DNA of 64,000 nucleotides, taken from Fibrobacterota bacterium. Its GTDB lineage: Bacteria > Fibrobacterota > Fibrobacteria > UBA11236. The number at the start of each line of letters is the position of its first letter. The stretch's first letter is position 1. The stretch lies in NCBI GenBank assembly GCA_947466585.1, contig CANIEU010000004.1, positions 1 through 64,000 on the forward strand. Direction: 5' to 3'. The notes beneath the pieces are model-generated. The model worked only from the letters and a program-made list of their open reading frames with translations. It ran no database searches and was not told the origin of the DNA. The position numbers and the translations under genes are program-made. Shown here one piece after another: positions 1 through 49,575 of this stretch.

Positions 1-426
1 CTCCCCGAGGTCGCCCCCAACCACGTCCAGAACTTCCTCGACCTCGCGCGCGCAGGGTTCTACGACAACACCAAATTCCATCGCGTCATTCCTGGATTCA
101 TGATCCAGGGCGGTGACCCGAACAGCAAGCAGGACGACCGCCGCCTCCATGGCACGGGCGGTTCCGGCAAAAACGTGAAGGCCGAGTTCAACGCGACCAA
201 GCATGTGCGCGGCATCGTGTCGGCGGCCCGTTCGTCGAACCCCGATTCGGCCTCGTCGCAGTTCTTCATCATGGTGGCCGACTCCGGTCATCTCGACGGC
301 CAGTACAGCGCTTTCGGCAAGGTCGTGTCGGGCATCGAAGTCGCCGACAAGATCGTGGCCGAAAAGACCGACCACCGCGACAATCCGGTGGAGCCCGTGT
401 CGATCACGGTGAAGGTGGTTGATTAG
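1..426 (+). CDS. Cyclophilin-type peptidyl-prolyl isomerase (5' truncated)
   Basis: The frame is open from the first base, so the N-terminus lies outside the window. Cyclophilins catalyse cis-trans isomerisation of X-Pro bonds during folding. Visible family motifs are FHRVIPGFMIQGGDP, which carries the catalytic Arg, then GTGGSGKNVKAEF, the substrate-pocket block SASSQFFIMV, and LDGQYSAFGKVVSGIEV. The short loops fit a bacterial single-domain enzyme. Whether it is cytoplasmic or periplasmic cannot be told without the N-terminus. The TAG stop forms part of a degenerate GGTAGAC repeat that continues into the intergenic region. Confidence 0.93.
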   Translation, partial: LPEVAPNHVQNFLDLARAGFYDNTKFHRVIPGFMIQGGDPNSKQDDRRLHGTGGSGKNVKAEFNATKHVRGIVSAARSSNPDSASSQFFIMVADSGHLDGQYSAFGKVVSGIEVADKIVAEKTDHRDNPVEPVSITVKVVD

Positions 427-576
427 ACGGTAGAAGGTAGACGGTAGTCGGTAGCGAAGATACTGACACCCTAAACTGAACCAGAAAAAAGCCCGGCTCT
501 CCGATTGGAGGCCGGGCTTTTTGTTTCCGGAGTTATCGGATAGGCAGTATGGAATCCTCTACCGTCTACCTACTCG
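425..576. repeat. Inverted degenerate GGTAGAC repeats around a terminator
   Basis: Bases 425-454 repeat the word GGTAGAC/GGTAGTC about four times. Bases 558-576 carry the complementary words (CTACCGTCTACCTAC), so the two arms face each other around the hairpin at 485-523. They lie between two convergent genes. The same word occurs at 4060-4172. Confidence 0.7.
485..523. terminator. Bidirectional intrinsic terminator
   Basis: GCCCGGC (491-497) pairs with GCCGGGC (511-517), extended inside by CTCC/GGAG around a GATT loop. An A-tract precedes it (485-490) and a T-tract follows, so it can end both convergent genes. Confidence 0.9.
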
Positions 577-2067: not shown

Positions 2068-2089
2068 GCCTACTGCTCACCTACTGCTT
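2068..2089. repeat. Two copies of CTACTGCTYA at a convergent gene end
   Basis: CCTACTGCTCA is followed directly by CCTACTGCTTA. The stop codon of the minus-strand gene lies inside the second copy. A short example of the gene-end repeat words seen elsewhere in the window. Confidence 0.45.
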
Positions 2090-4059: not shown

Positions 4060-4172
4060 GACGGTAGGCGGTAGACGGTAGACGGTGGCAGGTAGAGAAC
4101 ACAAAACATCTATTACCTGACTTTTATCTCTACCATCTACCGACTACCGTCTACCTACTACCTACTACCTAC
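4060..4172. repeat. Long inverted GGTAGAC/CTACCGT degenerate repeat
   Basis: The left arm (4060-4097) repeats GGTAGAC words and the right arm (4127-4172) repeats CTACCGT/CTACCTA words. The arms are approximate reverse complements and could fold into an imperfect hairpin filling the gap between two co-directional genes. Confidence 0.7.
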
Positions 4173-4181
4173 TTTTCCCTC

Positions 4182-13779: not shown

Positions 13780-13812
13780 CTGCCTATTGCTCATTGTCTA
13801 TTGTTCATTGTC
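13780..13812 (+). repeat. CTATTGTTCATTGT degenerate repeat in the cysM leader
   Basis: The words CTATTGCTCATTGT and CTATTGTTCATTGT follow each other in the leader between divergent ligA and cysM. It is unrelated in sequence to the other repeat words but similar in size and degeneracy. Confidence 0.6.
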
Positions 13813-14734: not shown

Positions 14735-14843
14735 GTGGAGAGCGGAAAGTTTACAGCTTCCAGCGAACAGCTTTCTTCGATGAATACGCTTTGGAGTTTT
14801 TGTGTTTGTGGTGGCTGTTCGCTGTAAGCTGTCCGCTGTCCAC
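14735..14843. repeat. Inverted AGCGGACAGCTTACAGC repeat between convergent genes
   Basis: The left arm (14735-14771) and the right arm (14814-14843) are reverse complements apart from a 7-nt insertion and three mismatches. The right arm ends exactly at the stop codon of the minus-strand lipoprotein gene. Both arms are built from degenerate AGCTTACAGCGAAC-type words. Confidence 0.75.
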
Positions 14844-18984: not shown

Positions 18985-19022
18985 CAGATTCCGCTTCGGA
19001 ATCTGCTTCAGATCCCGCGTTA
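18985..19022. repeat. CAGATTCCG hairpin and degenerate GATCCCGC words
   Basis: CAGATTCCG-CTT-CGGAATCTG is a perfect 9-bp hairpin (18985-19005), followed by TCAGATCCCGCG TTAGATCCCG. It lies between convergent genes and reaches the tatD stop, so it may terminate both. Confidence 0.6.
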
Positions 19023-26760: not shown

Positions 26761-26768
26761 GGATAAAA

Positions 26769-26847
26769 CATCACAACAACACAACAACAGAGCAATAAAG
26801 CGCGAAGAACCCCTTTTCTATTGCTGTGTTGTTGTGTTGTTGTGATG
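26769..26847. repeat. 29-bp inverted ACAACAAC repeat between convergent genes
   Basis: The arms (26769-26797 and 26819-26847) match at 28 of 29 positions as reverse complements and consist of ACAACA/ACAACAAC words. The right arm encodes the last residues of the symporter (HHNNTTTQQ) and abuts its stop codon. The loop is about 21 nt. Confidence 0.85.
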
Positions 26848-49522: not shown

Positions 49523-49539
49523 CCGCGAATGAACGAGAC

Positions 49540-49575
49540 CCTCGAGACTCACGAGACTATTGAGGCTGCTCGGGG
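49540..49575. repeat. Degenerate CTCGAGACT words at a gene junction
   Basis: CTCGAGACT, CACGAGACT and ATTGAGGCT follow each other across the end of the small basic protein gene and the presumed MFS leader. Confidence 0.5.

Follow-up and report, generated by a model that had tools for sequence, protein, structure and literature searches.

Heptamer arms in the window

The window, the first 64 kb (64,000 nucleotides) of contig C4 in a Fibrobacterota genome of 2.24 Mb (98.4% complete), holds three two-armed elements built of degenerate heptamers, one single arm of the same class and one relative built of 8-mers (Table 1). These account for five of eight loci at which a sequence-only reading had reported short words repeated imperfectly at gene boundaries. 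Its observation of imperfect arms facing each other at junctions holds for the four two-armed loci, whose RNA forms much stronger folds than dinucleotide shuffles do (z from −5.4 to −9.0). The other three loci fall outside the class, being a short repeat without a fold, a simple hairpin and a period-9 repeat.

The loop of element 1 contains a separate intrinsic-terminator-like hairpin, and the left arm of element 2 continues in extra degenerate units to about 4095. No facing partner was found for the single arm. Element 4 has a near-perfect stem and a related architecture with a different period. There is no rRNA in the window, and neither element 2 nor the longer element described below had plasmid matches. 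The ribonucleotide reductase (RNR) of this genome is 74% identical to one from a Fibrobacteria MAG, in line with its placement in Fibrobacterota.

Table 1. Repeat features of the window and of other contigs of the same genome (window positions are those of contig C4)
Feature	Coordinates	Arms	Context	RNA fold z
Element 1, GGTAG-NN	424..573	424-454 and about 558-573	Convergent junction	-5.4
Short repeat, about 11 bp	2068-2089		No fold
Element 2, GGTAG-NN	4062..4173	4062-4086, 4129-4173	Tandem, upstream of recO	-7.6
Single CAATG-class arm	13784..13812		CATTG-NN on + strand; divergent junction	0.06
Element 3, ACAGC-NN	14744..14841	14744-14771, 14814-14841	Convergent junction	-7.7
Hairpin with 9-bp stem, CAGATTCCG-CTT-CGGAATCTG, then ~12 bp repeat	18985-19022		Convergent junction
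Element 4, period-8 ACAACA-type	26767..26844	26767-26789, 26821-26844	Convergent junction	-9.0
Period-9 repeat	49533-49575		Adjoins gene start
Period-8 facing arms	C3:68301-68435
Period-8 facing arms	C3:94979-95073
Period-8 facing arms	C4:88168-88258
Period-8 facing arms	C8:57556-57695
Period-8 facing arms	C10:33949-34086
Arm-bounded region with IVP ORF	C1:90666-91174
Degraded IVP ORF (internal TAA)	C4:146429-146888		Between degenerate TAC-type arms
Short region with TAC-type arm	C4:149755-149891		~3 kb from degraded IVP
Heptamer array at contig end	C1:7-53
Heptamer array at contig end	C6:122019-122051		Contig ends at 122123
Heptamer array at contig end	C9:103-182

Period-7 arrays and their word classes

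Genome-wide figures rest on 1.59 Mb, pieced together from segments no longer than 20 kb, in which genes were called with our own dicodon model (1381 genes, 89.7% coding). The 162 kb of intergenic DNA in this sample contains 76 self-matching segments of period 7, whereas length-matched coding DNA has none and Markov shuffles give 0.2. Period 14 gives 68 segments in the same intergenic DNA; periods 3-6 show no excess over background and period 8 shows a mild one. An array is present in 116 of 990 intergenic regions; nine arrays lie within called genes, mostly less than about 100 bp from the gene edge, where start calls are uncertain. The genome-wide excess of such repeats is real and far above chance; it is not confined to gene ends.

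The repeat unit is a fixed pentamer followed by a free dinucleotide, and falls into about seven recurrent classes, with class words that include GGTAG-NN, GAAAT-NN, AGTGG-NN, ACAGC-NN, CAATG-NN and ACAGT-NN. The dinucleotide after GGTAG is AC (66 times), TA (30) or TC (21), and that after GAAAT is AT (44), CA (41) or GA (30). A different word at each locus, as the sequence-only reading had it, is not what we find: GGTAGACGGTAG by itself occurs 105 times in the genome, and both arms are of the GGTAG or GAAAT class in 38 of the 86 two-armed elements. Triplets of GGTAG occur in only 7 of 168 genomes of the phylum. As degenerate tandem heptanucleotides that are chiefly intergenic, the arrays belong with the cyanobacterial STRR/heptamer repeat class. 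Some words (GGTAGAC, GAAATGA) have stop codons in all frames; this was rejected as an explanation of the period, since arrays of ACAGC-NN and GAAATCA lack them (both by inspection).

A second set of facing arms, of period 8 and ACAACA-type, lies nearly always at convergent junctions (Table 1). It may be a family of its own, with another role.

Several contigs end in heptamer arrays, both in this genome (Table 1) and in another, G060 (C32 and C222). Because heptamer repeats break assemblies, our array counts are lower bounds. Assembly error is nonetheless an unlikely source of the repeats, given that each loop is unique and that many other assemblies show this architecture.

Architecture and placement

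A facing inverted partner (score at least 11; null maximum 10 in 300 trials) was found in 86 of 115 array-bearing regions. In the elements so defined (median 116 bp), two arms of 3-6 degenerate heptamers face each other across a loop of about 62 bp. Facing-partner scores, RNA folds and the pairing of the IVP flanks reported below all indicate complementary termini able to form a stem. Solitary arrays are common in other genomes: of 38 array loci taken one per genome from two phylum searches, only 8 showed a partner facing them at a distance of 260 bp or less.

Apart from a few terminator-, tRNA- or repeat-like pieces, the loops show no homology to one another or to the genome, and a transposon with a conserved interior was rejected on this ground. 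Loop edges are enriched in short motifs: AACRC stands at the left edge in 18 of 74 (4.7 expected) and GYGTT at the right edge in 18 of 74 (5.8 expected).

Of the 86 elements, 52 lie at tandem junctions, 23 at convergent and 11 at divergent ones. The median distance from an element end is 5 bp to a stop codon and 16 bp to a start codon. As 74 of the 172 ends (43%) face a start codon, 'gene ends' is too narrow a description.

Insertion at gene junctions

G001, a genome of the same genus (median protein identity 63% by reciprocal best hits), has no intergenic period-7 array above a strict threshold in 400 kb. At 12 conserved gene pairs that carry arrays here, the median gap is 142.5 bp in this genome and 16.5 bp in G001, where 5 of the 12 pairs are separated by at most 4 bp or overlap; the gap at the element 2 junction is 4 bp. 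The median length excess is 119 bp for these pairs, compared with 12 bp for 95 pairs that lack arrays (p=6e-5). The units are thus insertions: the whole arm-loop-arm structure is absent from the same junctions in G001. Neither movement of an element nor a clean target-site duplication was observed. At one junction a start-codon region may be present twice, as ATGAATAAT on the left and ATGTCTAGT on the right, alike at six of nine positions; otherwise the relatives are too distant.

Arms around IVP ORFs

One arm-bounded region, on contig C1, encloses an ORF of family PF05635, the 23S rRNA intervening-sequence protein (IVP/S23). IVP is a four-helix bundle protein (TIGR02436; PDB 2GSC match, E 1.7e-23), and IVP proteins also match the Avd model weakly (E 8e-10 for the IVP of this genome, below the curated cut-off). 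There are four IVP ORFs in the genome, three of them inside arms: one has GGTAG arms, one GAAAT arms, a degraded copy has degenerate TAC-type arms and the fourth has none. A short region with a TAC-type arm lies near the degraded copy (Table 1). Within the genus, this genome and G003 each have four IVPs together with GGTAG arrays, and G001 and G002 have neither.

The association extends beyond the genus. Period-7 arrays, in many different words, flank IVP at 27 of the 30 best Fibrobacterota IVP loci. Array density is 3.81 per kb near IVP and 0.126 in the rest of these loci; for Cyanobacteriota the two values are 2.45 and 0.126 per kb, and heptamer arms occur there at 15 of 30 IVP loci. Pairing of the IVP flanks was judged against shuffles and against control pairs within the same loci. 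Inverted flanks beat all 200 shuffles at 19 of 25 loci in Fibrobacterota, 24 of 28 in Cyanobacteriota and 13 of 16 in a Thiotrichales-order set, compared with 0 of 69 control pairs, so that IVP and arms are associated in three lineages. IVP is the sole ORF found inside arms at the loci examined, and no rRNA was found by Rfam in 15 IVP loci.

The same type of arm bounds IVP-bearing and ORF-less forms, although no IVP remnant is recognisable in the loops of the short elements. Both IVP arm words tested are abundant in their own genomes: the pattern GAGTTNTGAG has 19-109 genome matches where it forms IVP arms, while the median for the other genomes with an IVP is 0; for AGTGGTT the figures are 8-43 and 0. 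IVP is present in 51 of 62 genomes with any of three tested words and in 49 of 106 others (p=4e-6, uncorrected for phylogeny). It was not detected in G118 (83% complete) or G039 (96%), both with several array copies, nor in seven genomes reached through other loci, among them Chersky_265, the source of the closest RNR match.

Two further observations concern Cyanobacteriota. At six loci (L245, L248-L250, L265 and L266), IVP ORFs outside rRNA are bounded by inverted repeats that are not heptameric; these may represent a further type of arm within this class of element. One genome (G293:C1) has 18 matches to IVP, of which many belong to a single short type, making it a candidate for recent IVP expansion.

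Replacement and word switching at fixed junctions

Two neighbouring junctions were compared between species. The first lies downstream of a gene that we take to be lysS, judging from its C-terminal peptide. Here L230 and L231 have IVP ORFs that are 99.7% identical, as do L222 and L223, while their flanking genes differ by 5-23%; in L225/L232, L231/L232 and like pairs the ORF is only 62-68% identical, between flanks that are 90-93% identical. IVP identity is thus decoupled from flank identity, and the elements at this fixed site have been replaced or transferred independently of their flanks. The arm word has switched as well: one set has a word of AGTGGTT type, another a word of AGTAGAC/AGTAGGA type. 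At the second junction, about 1.2 kb away, the genes overlap in two species and the site is empty; three species have in common one mini-element, the arms of which are AAGTAGG, and a further three carry different inserts, of which two contain AGTGG words.

Interpretation

The sequence-only reading saw something real and misdescribed it: these are lineage-specific inserted IVS-like hairpins, not words amplified at gene ends. We consider it likely that they form a class of intergenic IVS-like hairpin elements, the short ones most probably being ORF-less derivatives of IVP elements. Insertion and the association with IVP are established; that IVP supports their spread is inferred.

Most of the evidence above also bears on other explanations. 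The process originally envisaged would amplify any short word found at the end of a gene and go on to invert it, for instance by slippage followed by hairpin-templated repair that copies the word in inverted orientation. Arm copy number does vary in steps of 7, and words do differ between species at one locus, but such a local process sits badly with a few words recurring at dozens of junctions, with whole units missing in G001 and with arms that bracket IVP ORFs in several lineages. Furthermore, in-register similarity between the two arms of an element is no higher than between arms from other elements of its class (score 14.55 against a permutation mean of 15.33), which speaks against per-locus templated inversion or hairpin-templated correction; we regard the process as very unlikely. 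We judge just as improbable the other suggestion of that reading, RNA 3′-end or terminator signals selected for structure and not sequence. The hairpins are strong, and elements occupy convergent junctions somewhat more often (23 of 86) than the share of such junctions would predict (197 of 1370), but a T-rich tract (six or more T or A among nine bases) stands behind the stem, on either strand, in only 6 (right) or 7 (left) of 86 elements. Nor does a pure end signal agree with the share of ends that face start codons, with the terminator-like hairpin that element 1 holds apart from its arms, or with the absence of elements from the sister species.

Arrays that act on expression, as has been argued for TAACTGA repeats (PMC4679880), would fit the heptamer period, the intergenic position and the arrays directly before some start codons. 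We give this explanation the least credence: facing arms occur at starts and stops alike, about seven unrelated words coexist in one genome, and the units are inserted between genes of relatives and surround IVP ORFs. Ordinary MITE-like derivatives of DNA transposons, with IVP as passenger cargo of no causal role, are an unlikely source too, although inverted ends, intergenic insertion and lineage-specific spread are what they would produce. Against them stand the lack of a conserved interior, the replacement of end words while the 7-bp period is kept, and IVP as the one ORF found within arms at the loci examined.

For IVS-like elements, a mechanism can be outlined. The repeats form the terminal arms of discrete elements that lie inserted at gene junctions, even where a relative's genes overlap, and the arms are able to pair as a long hairpin, in RNA or in single-stranded DNA. 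Longer elements of this build carry IVP/S23 (PF05635, TIGR02436) as their single ORF. This protein, a ring-forming four-helix bundle and distant relative of Avd, may act on the arms or on the hairpin RNA, supporting the spread of ORF-bearing and ORF-less forms, the short elements depending on it in trans. By analogy with rRNA IVSs, RNase III could trim the transcribed hairpin, and we propose that insertion between the genes of an operon would in this way be tolerated. IVP has, to our knowledge, no recognised catalytic domain; the DNA-joining enzyme is thus missing from the model, and the question arises how a hairpin spreads by or with such a protein. Another question is why the unit has seven bases, five fixed and two free.

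The findings suggest a common identity for several bacterial heptamer repeats that have lacked an explanation: they would be the termini of a single, widespread type of element. More tentatively, and with somewhat less than even confidence, we propose that IVP/S23 ORFs mark widespread minimal mobile elements that consist of heptamer arms and one four-helix-bundle ORF, with abundant ORF-less derivatives mobilised in trans; that STRRs, TAACTGA repeats, the heptamers of the Coxiella IVS and the Fibrobacterota arrays are their arms; and that lineages swap words while keeping period seven. Heptamer repeats are orphan features in several phyla, and IVP/S23 is a protein without an assigned function. 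The link to IVP proposes an origin for them, makes both testable and predicts that the IVP arm word is among the abundant heptamers of its genome.

Comparison with known systems

Among the open-access papers searched, we found none that links intergenic heptamer arms to IVP. The closest system is the rRNA IVS: in Coxiella burnetii, tandem heptamers precede the S23 ORF of the 23S rRNA IVS, which RNase III cleaves (PMC4990558). The elements described here resemble 23S rRNA IVSs in their complementary stem termini, in the optional S23/IVP ORF of the same family and in the existence of short ORF-less forms. They differ in lying between protein genes and not in rRNA, in their many copies per genome and in arms built of several degenerate heptamer words.

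The cyanobacterial STRR and the GGGNATC-type repeats of Xanthomonas and Nostoc are likewise degenerate intergenic heptamers with genome-wide spread (PMC4692102), and Cyanobacteriota IVP loci have heptamer arms; however, descriptions of these repeats present direct arrays or G-quadruplex formers and include neither facing arms nor IVP. Direct repeats of TAACTGA are found in Beggiatoaceae, Cyanobacteria and Bacteroidetes (PMC4679880). They have in common with our arrays the intergenic heptamers, a patchy distribution and indels in 7-nt steps, but consist of one main word, mostly in direct arrays before start codons, and have been read as translational sites.

REP/BIME and MITE families are also dispersed intergenic inverted-repeat units. 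The sequence-only reading had rightly set the repeats apart from REP/BIME, since here there are several word classes, unique loops and no single conserved palindrome; from MITEs they differ in having no conserved interior and in ends that fall into several word classes. The weak match of IVP proteins to the Avd model connects them with diversity-generating retroelements, of which no reverse transcriptase and no template or variable repeats came to notice in the loci, and homology between PF05635 and Avd has been reported (PMC10053308).
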